From: Polaromonas sp. YR568
GTDB lineage: Bacteria; Pseudomonadota; Gammaproteobacteria; Burkholderiales; Burkholderiaceae_C
Length of the DNA: 64,000 bases
NCBI RefSeq assembly: GCF_900116715.1
Contig: NZ_FPBM01000003.1
Location: 62,001-126,000 of the forward strand
Direction: 5' to 3'
Part shown: positions 4,729-9,209 of the stretch, in pieces
How positions within the stretch are numbered: the first letter of the stretch is position 1
How the letters are laid out: each line of letters begins with the position of its first letter
Notes under the pieces: generated by a model
What the model saw: the letters and a program-made list of their open reading frames with translations, nothing else
The model's database searches: none
What the model was told of the DNA's origin: nothing
Position numbers and translations under genes: made by a program

Positions 4729-5628
4729 ATGACCCAACGCCTCACGCCCGCCACCGCCTCGCTGCTGGTGATTCCGCCTATGCTCTGGGCCGGCAATGCC
4801 GTGGTCGGCCGCCTGGTCACCGGCCTGGTGCCGCCCATGACGCTCAATTTCATGCGCTGGGCGCTGGCCTTTGTGATTCTTCTGCCGCTGGCATGGCGCG
4901 TGTTGAAACCGGACAGCAGCCTGTGGCCGCTCTGGCGGCGCTTTGCGGTGCTGGGCCTGCTGGGCGTGGGCTGCTACAACGCGCTGCAATACCTGGCGCT
5001 GAAGACCTCGGCCCCGCTCAACGTCACGCTGGTGGCCTCCAGTGTGCCGATCTGGATGCTGATCGTGGGTGCGCTGTTTTTTGGCCAGCCCGTTTCGAAA
5101 CGCCAGATCGCCGGCGCCGTGCTATCGATTGCCGGCGTGCTGGTGGTGCTGTCGCGCGGCCAGTGGGAGCTCTTGATGCAGGTGCACCTGGTGCCCGGCG
5201 ATCTGTATGTGCTGCTGGCCACGCTGGCCTGGGCGTTTTACAGCTGGCTGCTCTCGCAACCCAAAGAGCCGAAAGAGATCCGCGGCGACTGGGCCGCCTT
5301 TTTGCTCGCGCAAATCGTGTTCGGCCTGGCCTGGTCGGGTGCGTTTGCCGCCGGTGAATGGACCTTGACGGACGCGCACATCAGCTGGGGCTGGCCGTTG
5401 GCAGCAGCCTTGCTATATGTGGCCGTCGGGCCCGCAGTGATCGCCTACCGCTGCTGGGGCATGGGCGTGCAACGCGTGGGGCCTGCGATTGCGGGCTTCT
5501 TTTCCAACCTCACGCCGCTGTTCGCCGCGCTGTTGTCGGCAGCCTTCCTCGGCGAGCTTCCGAACCTTTATCACGCGGTGGCCTTTGTGCTGATCGTGGG
5601 CGGCATCGTGGTGTCGTCACGGCGCTAA
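4729..5628 (+). CDS. EamA/DMT-family transporter
   Basis: A 299-residue inner-membrane protein with about ten hydrophobic segments in two EamA repeats, beginning LLVIPPMLWAGNAVVGRL and, in the second half, LLATLAWAFYSWLLS. Families of this type export amino acids, metabolites or drugs; the substrate cannot be read from sequence. The second repeat ends with PLFAALLSAAFLGE, typical of the group. It is divergent from the quinone oxidoreductase. No partner gene suggests a substrate. Confidence 0.88.
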   Translation: MTQRLTPATASLLVIPPMLWAGNAVVGRLVTGLVPPMTLNFMRWALAFVILLPLAWRVLKPDSSLWPLWRRFAVLGLLGVGCYNALQYLALKTSAPLNVTLVASSVPIWMLIVGALFFGQPVSKRQIAGAVLSIAGVLVVLSRGQWELLMQVHLVPGDLYVLLATLAWAFYSWLLSQPKEPKEIRGDWAAFLLAQIVFGLAWSGAFAAGEWTLTDAHISWGWPLAAALLYVAVGPAVIAYRCWGMGVQRVGPAIAGFFSNLTPLFAALLSAAFLGELPNLYHAVAFVLIVGGIVVSSRR

Positions 5629-5976
5629 GGCAATCAACAACACCAACCGCATTGCGCGGCAATGGTTTGATTTTCACCACACCTTGCGAAAAACCATCGC
5701 ATAAAACTTGCCAAGCTTGCACGGGCTCTTCAGAATCCGTTCCTTGCTTTGAGCCGCTGCGCAACGAATAACCTTGCGCAGTCAACCCTTGAAGCCACCA
5801 AGACCATGACTTTGTTCACTCACACCTGACGCACCGTCCACTGCCCCCGGCTGGATGTGGTGCCAACCATACCCAGCCCTGCGGGCAGTCGGTGCCGCGC
5901 CTTCACGTGTGAAGCGCGCTCCGCAAACCCCAGGCTGATTTTTTCGCCGGGGTTTTTGCTTTTTCGGAGCGTGCAC
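5629..5976. other. Non-coding stretch ahead of the small basic protein gene
   Basis: About 350 bp without a credible gene. It contains two inverted repeats just before the downstream gene: CTTCAC-GT-GTGAAG near 5900, and AACCCC...GGGGTT flanking a T-rich loop at about 5928-5957. The second resembles a terminator or a leader hairpin. I see no known riboswitch core. Confidence 0.4.
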
Positions 5977-6213
5977 ATGAGTGCCAAAACTTTTTCCCGT
6001 GACTTTGCCGCCGGCAAGGTCAAGCATTTGCGGCGCATGAAGCAGCCGCTGGCTTTGACCGTGCAGCTGCCAGCCCCGCGCAACCCCGTGGTGCAGGCGC
6101 TAGCTCGCCGTGCCATCACGTCCGGCGCGGGCAAACATATTCGCAGCACCGGCGCCAACCGCCGTGCTGAAACCGTGGCCTTGCACAAGGCCCTCAAAAA
6201 ATTGATTGATTGA
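5977..6213 (+). CDS. Small basic protein of unknown function
   Basis: A 78-residue Arg/Lys-rich protein with no signal peptide or membrane segment. I do not recognise a family. The frame extends upstream, but the ATG at 5977 follows CGGAG at suitable spacing and the upstream part lacks coding character. It ends 5 nt before the ATG of the AAA+/M41 gene and overlaps a possible TTG start of it, so the two are almost certainly co-transcribed. Its basic, soluble nature would fit an adaptor or nucleic-acid-binding partner, but that is speculation. Confidence 0.65.
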   Translation: MSAKTFSRDFAAGKVKHLRRMKQPLALTVQLPAPRNPVVQALARRAITSGAGKHIRSTGANRRAETVALHKALKKLID

Positions 6214-6218
6214 CTGAC

Positions 6219-8222
6219 ATGAAGAACGATATGACAACCGAGACGGCGGCCGCGACCCGCGTGCCGCCGGAGCTCATGCGCGAACGCAGCGCCCATCTGG
6301 CTGCGGTGGCTGCGGAGCTGAAGACCGAACTGTTCGGTATTGACGACATCATCGACCGGGTGATCGAGTCGATCCGCGCCTGGTATGTGCTGCCGCATAT
6401 CATCCGCCGCCCGGTGATTGTGTGCCTGTGGGGCCTGACCGGCACCGGCAAGACCCAGCTCACGCGCAGCCTGGCGCAAAAGCTGGGCTTTTACGACCGC
6501 TTTGTCGAAGTGCAGATGGACGGCTTCAGCAACGGCAGCAGCTGGCGCAGCGCCGATTCCATCAGCGCCATGCTGGCAGAATCCGGCGTCGCCGAGAGCG
6601 AGCCCGGCATTCTGGTGCTGGACGAGTTTCAGCGCTTTCGCACCGTCGACGAAAAAGGCAAGGACTTCGCCGTCAAACGCTACCAGGACGTCTGGCAACT
6701 GCTGTCCGACGGGCGCCTGCCGCCGTCGCTGTCTTTCCTGCAGGAACTGGAGTCGTCTCTGGCGTATTCGCAATACGAGCATGAACGCGAACACCCGGAT
6801 GAAGACAAACCTGCCGCGGACGCCACCCAGCCCAAAAAGCTGAAGTTCAAGCTCTCACCCTATCAGGCCCAGGAGTTCAAGCAAAGCCTCAAGCTCAAGG
6901 AGCCGCTGCAGGAAGTGATGACCTGGACGCCCCAGCAACTGCAGGAGCGCATGCTGGAGTTCAGGGCATCGACCGACTCGTGGGAGACGGATTACAGCCG
7001 CCTGCTCATCATCGTTTCGGGCAACCTGGATGAGATGTACGAAGGCACCGCCAGCCGTGTGGAAGACTGCGACACCGACGCCGACATCTTTCATGCCATG
7101 ACGAAGAAGCTCTCCGTCATCGACGTCAAGAAGGCACTGGGAGAGCGCTTCAAGCCCGAGCAGATTGCACGGCTGGGCAACAACCATGTGATCTACCCGT
7201 CGCTAAGCCAGGCCACGTATGAGCGGCTGATCCGCAGCACCTGCGGCAAATATGCCGATGAAATGCTGGCGAGCGCCGGTCTGGACTTTGTGCTGCATGA
7301 GTCAGTGTACGAAGGCATTTATGCCAATGCGGTGTTTCCGGCCCAGGGCACACGCCCGCTGTTCTCGTCTATCCATGCCATCCTGAGTGCGCCGCTGGTC
7401 AATGCCGCGCTGTGGGCGATTGAGCGTGGCATGCCGGAAGGCACCACGCTGCACGTCAGGCTGGATGCGGCCACGCAATCGCTGCGCGTCAGTTGCGGTG
7501 TCGACGGTGAAGGCCCCGGCATCGCCTACCCGGTGCCGCTGGACCTCAACCAGCTCAAGCAGCGCGCCAGTCCGGACTTCCGGGCGCTGCTGGCCGTGCA
7601 TGAAGCCGGCCACGGTCTGGTCTATGGCCGCCTGTTTGGCCATGCGCCGCAGGAGGTCAAGATCAATGTGGCGTCTTTCGAGGGCGGCTACAACAGCTAT
7701 GTGCGTATGAAGGCCGAATCACGGCAAAGCTGCCTGGACCGCATCTGCGTGGGCCTGGCCGGCCGCGCCGCCGAGGCCCTGGTGTTCGGCGACGATGCCT
7801 GCACCACCGGCAGCGAAAGCGACTTCAAGAACGCCACGGCTCTCGCGGCGCGTTTTGTGCGCCACTTCGGCTTCGGCAACCGGCTCAGCCGCACTGACGT
7901 GGCCGATGAAACGGAGGAAAACCTCAACACCGACGTCGAGCCGACCAATGCCGAGATCGAAGCCCTGCTGGCAGAGGCCTATGCACGCGCGCAGGAGATC
8001 CTTAAAGCCGATTCGGCCCTGCTGCTGCGCATCGTCGACGAACTGCTGGCGGATGGCCAGGTGAGCAAGGAAAAAATGGCCGACCTGCTGGGGGTGACCA
8101 TCGCGAAAGAAGAGCAAATGCTTGCGCCTTATGCGGAGCAGCTTCAGGTCTTTGGCCTGCAGCACGAGCTGATGCGGCGGGTTGGCAACGCGCCAGTGCC
8201 TTGCGAAGAGTCGCTGGTGTAA
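6219..8222 (+). CDS. Soluble AAA+ ATPase fused to an FtsH-type M41 zinc metallopeptidase
   Basis: A 667-residue predicted ATP-dependent protease. Walker A is GLTGTGKT (72-79), Walker B ILVLDE (131-136), a sensor-1-like LLIIVSGN lies near 270, and a GTRPLFSSIHAIL block near 385 resembles the sensor-2 region of Clp/HSP100 ATPases. The C-terminal third has the M41 site HEAGH (461-465) and a likely third zinc ligand Asp535 in GSESDFKNAT. FtsH normally has two N-terminal membrane helices and a GPPGTGKT-type AAA domain; both are missing. A charged, low-complexity insert (EHEREHPDEDKPAAD) lies near 190-205. A TTG at 6210 is an alternative start. It is downstream partner of the small basic protein. 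Confidence 0.85.
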   Translation: MKNDMTTETAAATRVPPELMRERSAHLAAVAAELKTELFGIDDIIDRVIESIRAWYVLPHIIRRPVIVCLWGLTGTGKTQLTRSLAQKLGFYDRFVEVQMDGFSNGSSWRSADSISAMLAESGVAESEPGILVLDEFQRFRTVDEKGKDFAVKRYQDVWQLLSDGRLPPSLSFLQELESSLAYSQYEHEREHPDEDKPAADATQPKKLKFKLSPYQAQEFKQSLKLKEPLQEVMTWTPQQLQERMLEFRASTDSWETDYSRLLIIVSGNLDEMYEGTASRVEDCDTDADIFHAMTKKLSVIDVKKALGERFKPEQIARLGNNHVIYPSLSQATYERLIRSTCGKYADEMLASAGLDFVLHESVYEGIYANAVFPAQGTRPLFSSIHAILSAPLVNAALWAIERGMPEGTTLHVRLDAATQSLRVSCGVDGEGPGIAYPVPLDLNQLKQRASPDFRALLAVHEAGHGLVYGRLFGHAPQEVKINVASFEGGYNSYVRMKAESRQSCLDRICVGLAGRAAEALVFGDDACTTGSESDFKNATALAARFVRHFGFGNRLSRTDVADETEENLNTDVEPTNAEIEALLAEAYARAQEILKADSALLLRIVDELLADGQVSKEKMADLLGVTIAKEEQMLAPYAEQLQVFGLQHELMRRVGNAPVPCEESLV

Positions 8223-8245
8223 GCCGGGTCACCGATTGCTCAGGC

Positions 8246-8284
8246 AAAAAAATGCACGGAGAGCAGCCCAGCTGCTTTCCGTGC
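8246..8284. terminator. Probable bidirectional intrinsic terminator
   Basis: The 13-bp stem GCACGGAGAGCAG (8254-8266) pairs with 8272-8284, with one G-U pair and a 5-nt loop. Read on the minus strand it is followed by a run of seven T, so it is a good terminator for the ABC operon. On the plus strand a weaker T-rich stretch follows, for the AAA+/M41 gene. It lies between convergent genes. Confidence 0.8.
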
Positions 8285-8342
8285 CCAATTTTCCACCAAC
8301 GGAAAATCTTTTCAGGCGCTTTTCAGCCTCATGTCCGGCTCG

Positions 8343-9209
8343 TCAGGCTTTGCCCGGGTGCTCCTTCACGCGACTCACCAGCTGCGTGGGGTTGACGAAG
8401 CGCAGCGCGATCAGCAGCCACAGCACCGTGATCGCCATGTAAATCATCGCCATCGCGTCCACCGACTGCCCGGCGCGCACGCCGGCGGCAAACACCGCGT
8501 AATAGAGCGCCACCACCAGCGTCTGCGTATCCGGCCCGGCCACCAGAAAGGTCAGCTCGAACATCGCCACCGTACGCACCAGCACCAGCAGGCCCGCCGC
8601 CAGCACACCGGGCGCCAGCAACGGCACCAGGGTGTAGAGAAACATCTGCCGTGTGTTGGCGCCGAAAACGCGCGCGGCCGACTCGATGTTGGTGTCCACC
8701 TGTTCGATGAAAGGCGTCATCACCAGGATCACGAAGGGCAGCGCAGGAATCATGTTGGCGATGATCACGCCCGGCAGCGTGCCGGCCAGGTGCAGCTGGT
8801 ACATCACCGTAGCCAGCGGAATACCGTAGGTAATCGGCGGCACCATCAGCGGCAGCAGAAAGAGCAGCGTGAGCAGCTTCTTGCCGCGAAAGTCTTTGCG
8901 CGCCAGCGTGTAGGCAGCAGGCACGCCAATCAGCAGCGACAAAAACACCACCGAGAACACCACCACCACGGTGACCACCAGCACATGGCCGAGCTGGAAC
9001 TCCTTCCAGGCCGAGACATACCAGCTGAGGGTGTAGGCCTCAGGCAGCCAGGTGCCCAGCCAGCGCGTGGCGACCGAGTTGGTAGCGACGGCGAGGATCA
9101 TCATGCCGACGTTGACCAGGAAGAAGGCGATCAGCCCCCAGACCAGCGCGCGCCAGGCGCGGTCGCGCAGCGGGTCTTTCTCATGCATCTGTGTGTGGGT
9201 CGCGCTCAT
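8343..9209 (-). CDS. ABC transporter permease (PotC-like)
   Basis: A 288-residue inner-membrane permease with about six transmembrane segments and a binding-protein-dependent transport EAA loop (SAARVFGANTRQMFLYTLVPLLAPG, shown as SAARVFGANTRQ then LVPLLAPG). Its start overlaps the end of the upstream permease by 4 nt (ATGA). It is the last gene of a receptor-ATPase-permease-permease set resembling spermidine/putrescine or iron importers. The substrate is not evident; the position downstream of gudD hints at a sugar acid or related organic acid. Confidence 0.88.
   Translation of the reverse strand: MSATHTQMHEKDPLRDRAWRALVWGLIAFFLVNVGMMILAVATNSVATRWLGTWLPEAYTLSWYVSAWKEFQLGHVLVVTVVVVFSVVFLSLLIGVPAAYTLARKDFRGKKLLTLLFLLPLMVPPITYGIPLATVMYQLHLAGTLPGVIIANMIPALPFVILVMTPFIEQVDTNIESAARVFGANTRQMFLYTLVPLLAPGVLAAGLLVLVRTVAMFELTFLVAGPDTQTLVVALYYAVFAAGVRAGQSVDAMAMIYMAITVLWLLIALRFVNPTQLVSRVKEHPGKA

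Follow-up and report, generated by a model that had tools for sequence, protein, structure and literature searches.

In the FtsH, m-AAA and i-AAA proteases, a single chain carries an AAA+ motor followed by an M41 zinc peptidase with an HExxH motif and a downstream Asp ligand. Among regulatory leaders, those of the trp type contain a short upstream open reading frame (uORF) that senses the position of the ribosome and sets alternative RNA structures. According to the excerpt of PMC12121999, the short uORF of the E. coli toiL-topAI leader likewise detects where the ribosome stands and determines which of alternative RNA structures is formed; through it the leader senses poor translation, and ribosome-targeting antibiotics of at least five classes elicit a response. 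The S. meliloti duf1127_1 leader, in which uORF-dependent transcription attenuation precedes a small gene of the DUF1127 family and which likewise senses poor translation through its uORF, is read in the excerpt of PMC12218461 as a monitor of translation efficiency and proposed to report ribosome availability. Here we describe a locus of Polaromonas sp. YR568 that resembles both kinds of system. It lies in a stretch of 64,000 nucleotides (the window) on contig 19 of a 4.83-Mb assembly, where the gene of a small basic protein of 78 aa (P0002) is followed after 5 nt by that of a 667-aa protein (P0001), in which a Clp/HSP100-like AAA+ module is joined to an M41 peptidase (Table 1). A first-pass annotation, made by a model from the letters of the sequence, had pointed out this chimeric protease and its pairing with the small gene; the observation is confirmed here, and its interpretation as a poorly described soluble protease system is supported. 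The main new result is the leader of the pair (5708-5964), which is outside the coordinates given in that annotation. A related locus is L003 of Polaromonas sp. CF318, whose protease is 88% identical.

Table 1. Features of the leader and the gene pair, in window coordinates
Feature	Position	Strand	Basis
Sigma-70-type promoter-like site, TTGCCA-17-CAGAAT	5708-5736	+	predicted; sole such site in 5500-8500
uORF, peptide MTLFTHT, UGA stop	5806-5829	+	fixed position before the motif in 28/28 leaders
Hairpin A, starting right after the uORF stop; loop exposes CCCCGGC	5831-5863	+	fold -16.0 kcal/mol, z -1.6
CCCCGGC motif, fully complementary to GCCGGGG in the terminator 3' arm; antiterminator pairing predicted	5845-5851	+	7-nt perfect duplex
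Hairpin B core, GGCTGG (5849-5854) with CCAGCC (5873-5878); excludes hairpin A	5849-5878	+	RNAalifold, swap test
Intrinsic terminator, AAACCCC...GCCGGGG then TTTTTGCTTTTT, between uORF and small gene	5925-5964	+	fold -15.8 kcal/mol, RNAalifold
Small basic protein gene, 78 aa, P0002; stop codon 6211-6213	5977-6213	+	open reading frame, homology, conservation; no Pfam, NCBIfam or PADLOC family match
AAA+/M41 chimeric soluble protease gene, 667 aa, P0001; ATG at 6219	6219-8222	+	Pfam, NCBIfam, alignment, fold and profile comparisons
HSP100/Clp-like AAA+ module, residues 15-442; Walker A GLTGTGKT 6432-6455	6261-7544	+	ClpB alignment, PDB profile matches, low-confidence model
M41 zinc peptidase domain, residues 454-622; HEAGH (461-465) 7599-7613, Asp535 7821-7823	7578-8084	+	Pfam Peptidase_M41 79.2 bits (cut-off 29.9), hhalign, AFG3L2 fold

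The leader upstream of the gene pair

Alignment of the sequence upstream of the small genes brought out a conserved block. The leader set was drawn from 66 retrieved stretches whose small-gene match is below 1e-14, some of them the same place retrieved twice. In 65 of these a uORF ends before a CCCCGGC-type motif, and the exception (L002) starts inside the small gene. Removal of near-identical leaders left 28 dereplicated ones. Every one of them has its uORF stop 16-21 nt ahead of the motif, against 0.25 expected from dinucleotide shuffles of the sequence upstream of a fixed motif. Across leaders the uORF is 7-11 codons long, and its peptide varies by clade (MTLFTHT, MFVPLFAPT, MSSLFISTID, MTLFLIHTTQP and others) with no run of a single amino acid. 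The one promoter-like site in 5500-8500 compares with a mean of 0.6 in shuffles and is weak alone; similar sites occur in 17 of the 28 leaders, where mononucleotide shuffles give an expectation of 1.6. At the other end of the leader, 8 of the 10 bases after the stem of the window's terminator are T, and at least six T follow the stem in 22 leaders, with fewer in L021, L045, L063, L064 and L066; in L032 our script picked another place for the terminator and its pairing with the motif. A generic terminator scan missed the site at 5925-5964, probably because of its uneven stem, and found 4 other sites against 3.4 expected. A second conserved hairpin-like element (CAACGA..ACCTTG, window 5756-5783) was found upstream of the uORF in 8 of the 28 leaders and was also seen, by eye, in the IMG/VR contigs L071 and L072.

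Two hairpins are predicted at the motif, and since they share an arm, they are mutually exclusive. The segment from the uORF stop to past the motif folds as hairpin A in all 28 leaders (z from -0.3 to -3.9, at -2 or below in 17 of them). In hairpin B, GGCTGG and the bases after it pair with CCAGCC; in the window the two arms are 18 nt apart. The helices were examined by a swap test, in which each arm was paired with its own partner and with partners from dissimilar leaders. Hairpin A gave -13.4 kcal/mol native and -8.5 kcal/mol swapped, with 19 of the 28 leaders beating at least 90% of swaps, and the corresponding values for hairpin B were -19.5 and -15.5 kcal/mol (16 of 28). For the pairing of the motif with the terminator they were -17.9 and -9.4 kcal/mol (26 of 28); the motif is the same in most leaders, however, so that few divergent swap partners were available. 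The RNAalifold consensus of 22 leaders predicts hairpin B and the terminator, with double changes in only 2 of 13 pairs. The complement between motif and terminator spans 6-11 nt over the 28 leaders (elsewhere in L032) and has a shuffle p up to 0.05 in 18 of them; the 7-nt duplex of the window has a p of 0.09. Moreover, the motif and the terminator arm change together, as in GTCCCGGC:GCCGGGAC, ACCGGC:GCCGGT and CCCTGG:CCAGGG; such joint changes were found in L063, L064, L066, L032 and L013.

A covariance model built from 22 leaders was searched against 299 genomes of the family. Among the matches listed, 26 have an E value below 1e-8, and each of these stands immediately before a small gene, in genomes G122, G215 and G285 before a variant one; the leaders of these three are absent from the model. 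In these three genomes, as in G147, G230 and G265, the leader precedes a small gene without a neighbouring protease, and at locus L024 it stands directly before the protease, with no small gene at the locus (the rest of that genome was not searched). Both genes therefore share one control signal even when apart. In L071 and L072 the leader precedes the pair of small gene and protease. Weaker matches begin at E 1.8e-6; those in G018 and G147 precede small genes, and the remaining ones are provisionally taken for common GC-rich terminators. A wider regulon was considered and is held to be less likely; weak matches to the leader model are numerous, with at least 191 of the 299 genomes matched at E up to 0.1 (with stricter filters). 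G218, G086 and G263 have a small gene and a uORF, with no leader match there among the matches listed. In Rfam, no match above cut-off was found for the leader in 8 loci, and sub-cut-off matches (E 0.27-0.9) appeared in two stretches only, one of them being CRISPR-DR21 (E 0.9) over the window terminator. The motif 'Burkholderiales-1', which stands without an Rfam number in the excerpt of PMC2864571, may be this leader.

The protease and its small basic partner

The first-pass annotation had placed the C-terminus of P0001 in M41, and this assignment stands. The whole genome has two M41 matches, P0001 and an ordinary FtsH of 641 aa, with which the peptidase aligns over 167 columns (hhalign probability 96.9). 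In the AlphaFold model of P0001, which like that of the small protein is of low confidence (mean pLDDT, the predicted local distance difference test score, 64.7 each), residues 449-631 superpose on AFG3L2 with a Z of 19.1 and a root-mean-square deviation (rmsd) of 2.5 over 175 residues. A profile of 19 sequences, compared with PDB chains, matched FtsH structures at model positions ~437-617. H461, E462, H465 and D535 are invariant in these 19 aligned sequences, query included, of which one has HESGH in place of HEAGH; Walker A, Walker B and the HExxH motif are also kept throughout. P0001 would be an ATP-dependent zinc protease. As the annotation had claimed, no transmembrane helix was found in it by hydropathy, the highest 19-residue Kyte-Doolittle mean being 1.41.

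The motor was described as Clp/HSP100-like rather than of the FtsH type, and our comparisons support a closer, if distant, kinship with Clp/HSP100. Pfam AAA (PF00004) matches residues 68-153 at 34.1 bits (cut-off 21.2). In a profile comparison with four proteins of the same genome, which were named from protein length and sequence or by eye, the motor aligned with ClpB over 288 columns (probability 78.6), with ClpX over 69 (85.3), with ClpA over 65 (61.5) and with FtsH over 64 (63.3), only the Walker A-B core being alignable in the last. The parts aligned with ClpB include Walker A and B as well as RFxPEQxARLGN and QGTRP, which we take to be Arg-finger-like and sensor-2-like. As the probabilities are moderate for all four proteins, what speaks for the HSP100 type is how far the alignment with ClpB extends and which motifs it contains. 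In addition, the PDB matches of the 19-sequence profile outside the M41 part are ClpE (model positions 14-95) and nucleotide-binding domain 2 (NBD2) of ClpB (289-402), and residues ~21-288 of the low-confidence model fit ClpX (Z 11.7, rmsd 3.7, 159 residues) and ClpA (Z 11.5, rmsd 3.5, 158 residues). The NCBIfam equivalogs of ClpA (39.7 of 993.15 bits) and ClpB (34.8 of 1232.1 bits) give partial matches over the motor that do not reach the cut-offs, and the ClpB_D2-small domain appears at its expected place with 14.5 bits, below the cut-off of 21.9.

It is extremely unlikely that P0001 is an ordinary FtsH paralogue that has lost its membrane anchor. Pfam does show the FtsH domain pair of AAA and M41, whole FtsH chains rank first in the Foldseek and VIA fold searches (with an rmsd of ~13-18 Å where the rows span both domains), and the hhalign motor probabilities are alike for FtsH and ClpA. 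However, the NCBIfam model FtsH_fam is confined to residues 451-619, that is to M41, where it scores 69.1 bits against a cut-off of 600, and both the column counts of the motor and its PDB profile matches point to ClpB and ClpE. The annotation had itself named an FtsH with mis-annotated N-terminal helices as a possible error. The DNA 5' of the P0001 start holds the small gene and its stop codon, which, together with the confinement of FtsH_fam to M41 and the alignment of the motor with ClpB and ClpE, argues against such an identity.

P0002, called Arg/Lys-rich and tightly coupled to the protease in the first pass, indeed contains 17 Lys/Arg and 3 Asp/Glu residues (isoelectric point 12.0). Most of the codons of its gene that differ between relatives differ synonymously: 12 of 21 for the window and L003, and 29 of 34, 21 of 27 and 15 of 26 between L014 and L021, L010 and L006, respectively. 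Wider relatives of 53-69 aa, whose start codons were chosen by us, have only the C-terminal half in common (PRNPLVxA...AGxHRKS..A.RR..K.AL), and one short relative is encoded in the same genome on contig 17 (G000:C17). A wider spread of the small family was considered and set aside: across the phylum, it was matched at E up to 0.01 in 6 of 200 genomes, five of them besides the genome itself and at E 6e-4 or weaker. An EamA transporter gene is located upstream of the leader in the window (4729-5628) and in L032 (4142-5050), and short P0002 relatives in L076 (2832-3943), L081, L082 and L085 also follow what appears by eye to be an EamA gene.

A search of genome contigs yielded 32 homologous protease loci. 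The named organisms are all Burkholderiales, and the other loci belong to metagenome-assembled genomes labelled betaproteobacterial, Comamonadaceae, Burkholderiales or Pseudomonadota. The protease was found in 31 of the 299 genomes of the family, its own genome included (E up to 1e-60), and in 2 of 398 genomes across the phylum (E up to 1e-40), namely its own and G122 of the same family. Lack of conservation of the small gene, which the annotation had listed as a point that would speak against it, was not what we found: the gene is directly upstream in 26 of the 32 loci, recognised in L013 and L032 by 40 residues only. The six loci without a match are L007 and L009, with little or no upstream sequence, L004, L005 and L033, with no such gene, and L024, where the leader is kept. 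When a strong match was defined by our own threshold of E up to 1e-14, the small gene was present in 28 of the 299 genomes, comprising 25 of the 31 with the protease and 3 of the 268 others (G147, G230 and G265). In the 25 genomes it is upstream of the protease on the same strand, at distances from overlapping to 830 nt, and weaker matches were seen in ten further genomes. Three of these ten (G122, G215 and G285) contain the protease, and their small gene is diverged and sits on a different contig. A protease without any small-gene match was found in G173, G239 and G269, that of G269 being in pieces. The protease gene of Ottowia sp. GY511 (L031:5943-7927, G146:C22) lies in two frames and represents either a broken gene or a sequencing error.

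The protease was not matched in any phage record; four plasmid records match it in the M41 part only, and two IMG/VR contigs match it as well. In L072 (402-7292, 7703-10257), leader, small gene and protease adjoin an HU gene and phage-tail-like genes recognised by eye, so the gene pair may travel with prophages. At the three loci with a protease but neither leader nor small gene, the surroundings differ. In L005 (646-5858) the protease gene is beside genes for a WYL regulator, two GmrSD_N proteins and a PP2C phosphatase, and in L033 (101-5557) beside those of two GmrSD_N proteins and an FtsZ-like protein, with an integrase-like gene near (by eye); the neighbours in L004 (1384-9855) were also read by eye. 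A palindrome, TGCGTCA-n-TGACGCA, precedes the L005 protease gene, and similar ones were seen in L033 and L004. A defence system was considered and discarded, PADLOC giving weak AAA matches only (best E 6e-6).

Predicted switch and function of the pair

We tentatively read the leader as a ribosome-gated transcription attenuator, the operon being induced if translation of the uORF is impaired, and the small protein as working with the soluble AAA+ metalloprotease. Transcription would start near 5743 and produce the leader first, with its 7-codon uORF. A ribosome at the uORF stop would cover the 5' arm of hairpin A, whereupon hairpin B would form, hide CCCCGGC and let the terminator act. If initiation or early elongation were blocked and the uORF not translated to its end, hairpin A would form first, and the CCCCGGC exposed in its loop would pair with the 3' arm of the terminator in a hairpin-loop pseudoknot, breaking the terminator. 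The small basic protein and the cytosolic protease would then be made, the Clp/HSP100-type motor feeding the FtsH-type peptidase on the same chain. The domains, the absence of membrane helices, the gene pair with its co-conservation, the uORF, the alternative helices and the terminator are read from the sequences themselves. We infer the direction and trigger of the switch because the motif is exposed only in hairpin A, whose 5' arm would be occupied by a ribosome standing at the stop.

Several observations weigh against this reading. In equilibrium folding, in which pseudoknots cannot show, hairpin B and the terminator dominate in most leaders, the terminator probability is at least 0.8 in 20 of the 28, and no clear switch appears. 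At equilibrium hairpin A hardly occurs (0.31 at most), so that the model needs folding during transcription. When the first 15 nt were removed to mimic a ribosome, the terminator went down by more than 0.1 in two of the 28 leaders (L008 and L065), as the opposite sense of the switch would have it; it went up by more than 0.1 in three (L014, L026 and L064), which fits the proposed sense. The window uORF has no recognisable Shine-Dalgarno sequence (score 0), unlike most of its relatives, and L063 and L066 have no T-run, that of L064 being short. The leader is also more faithful to the small gene than to the protease, and the small gene occurs alone. As for the motor, the structure models are of low confidence, and its profile found only P0001 itself in the genome at E up to 10, not even ClpB; it is for this reason, and for the sub-cut-off match of ClpB_D2-small, that we call the Clp kinship distant. 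In the clade of L063, L064 and L066, the uORF, hairpin A and the long-range pairing are kept, and control may act there on translation.

The tnaC and speF leaders are switched by ribosomes that stall where the uORF ends, and a Pro-X-stop or X-Pro-stop context slows termination. An opposite sense can accordingly be imagined here, in which a ribosome stalled at the uORF stop would block hairpin A and free the motif for the terminator 3' arm, turning the operon on. The constant distance between stop and motif, at which a terminating ribosome would cover about only the 5' arm of A, the Pro-X-stop or X-Pro-stop ends of several leader peptides and the lowered terminator of L008 and L065 are in its favour. 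Nevertheless, we consider it rather unlikely. Hairpin B, whose own arms fit better than swapped ones, would hide the motif, and it shares GGC with the motif-terminator pairing; since folding showed hairpin B, this logic is ranked behind induction by impaired uORF translation. The stop codon varies as well, being UAA in L065 and L071/L072 and UAG in L024, so no single release factor would be sensed, and sensing of release factor 2 through a conserved UGA was rejected on these grounds. The opposite sense is compatible with the reading of the small protein as a substrate discussed next, which concerns function.

In the reading that we prefer, the most likely role of the small protein is that of an adaptor which works with the protease and brings it targets, and these are probably RNA- or ribosome-associated because of its charge; the pair is most economically described as a soluble protease that is induced by stress and has a small basic partner. 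That the small protein acts alone, as an RNA- or ribosome-binding stress protein whose level is limited through degradation by its frequent neighbour, seems rather improbable to us. Such a substrate role suits the leader and small gene without protease in G147, G230 and G265, the variant small gene with a leader away from the protease in G122, G215 and G285, and the shorter relatives elsewhere, also in the same genome, but it sits poorly with the strong linkage to the protease (25/31) and the close spacing, and a protease kept for one small protein only would be unusual. Very unlikely is an ArfA-like rescue factor that would recruit a release factor to stalled ribosomes while the protease removes the released chains. 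The regulation looks ribosome-linked, ArfA is above cut-off in 0 of 41 related genomes, and P0002 appears by eye to be like it in size, charge and a G-A-G-K-H-type segment. However, Pfam PF03889 matched neither P0002 nor seven relatives, and the small-family profile, searched against the PDB at E up to 10, retrieved no ArfA chain, its single row being Hsp15 (E 0.91). Returning to the adaptor reading, its furthest extension would be a translation-quality pathway apart from transfer-messenger RNA (tmRNA), ArfA/ArfB and RqcH, in which the uORF leader would sense poor translation and the small protein would bind troubled ribosomes or their products and hand them to a dedicated soluble AAA+ metalloprotease; we regard this extension as distinctly doubtful.

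Comparison with known systems

In the open-licence papers whose titles and abstracts were searched, neither a soluble or Clp-type M41 protease nor such a leader in this bacterial group is described, in agreement with the view of the first-pass annotation that the system is poorly described. As far as searched, the combination of motor and peptidase in an AAA+ protease is new, and the leader is of a known principle with a new sequence, which makes it a candidate new RNA family. A soluble chain of Clp-type motor and FtsH-type peptidase suggests natural recombination of motor and peptidase, and it would be an M41 enzyme of the cytosol to which the membrane problem does not apply. The leader, which is conserved and looks like a translation monitor, gives a hint of the circumstances in which the protease is needed; if this is true, the operon would offer a ready-made system for studying how disturbed translation is linked to proteolysis in a bacterium.

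P0001 has the domain order of FtsH, m-AAA and i-AAA on one chain, and differs from FtsH in having no transmembrane helix, a motor that seems nearer to Clp/HSP100, an insert of ~100 residues between Walker B and sensor 1, and a gene that adjoins that of a small basic protein. With the HSP100/Clp proteins (ClpB NBD2, ClpE, ClpA and ClpX) it has in common Walker, Arg-finger and sensor-2 regions that align with ClpB. In contrast to them, it has a single AAA+ ring, scores far below the ClpA and ClpB family cut-offs, and has its peptidase as part of the same chain, not as a separate ClpP. Like P0002, the rescue factors ArfA and BrfA are small and very basic, with a Gly-Lys/His-rich stretch (a likeness seen by eye), whereas no sequence homology to them is detectable in P0002.

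With the duf1127_1 leader, the locus has in common the predicted uORF-dependent attenuation before a small gene. There, according to the excerpt of PMC12218461, the stop is probably Rho-dependent, with C-rich uORF codons, whereas an intrinsic terminator and alternative hairpins are found here; P0002 has no Pfam match at all and hence none to DUF1127. The toiL-topAI and trp-type leaders come closest in principle, and the present leader is set apart from them by a uORF without a single-amino-acid run, a protease operon as its target, and a predicted pairing of a hairpin loop with the terminator.

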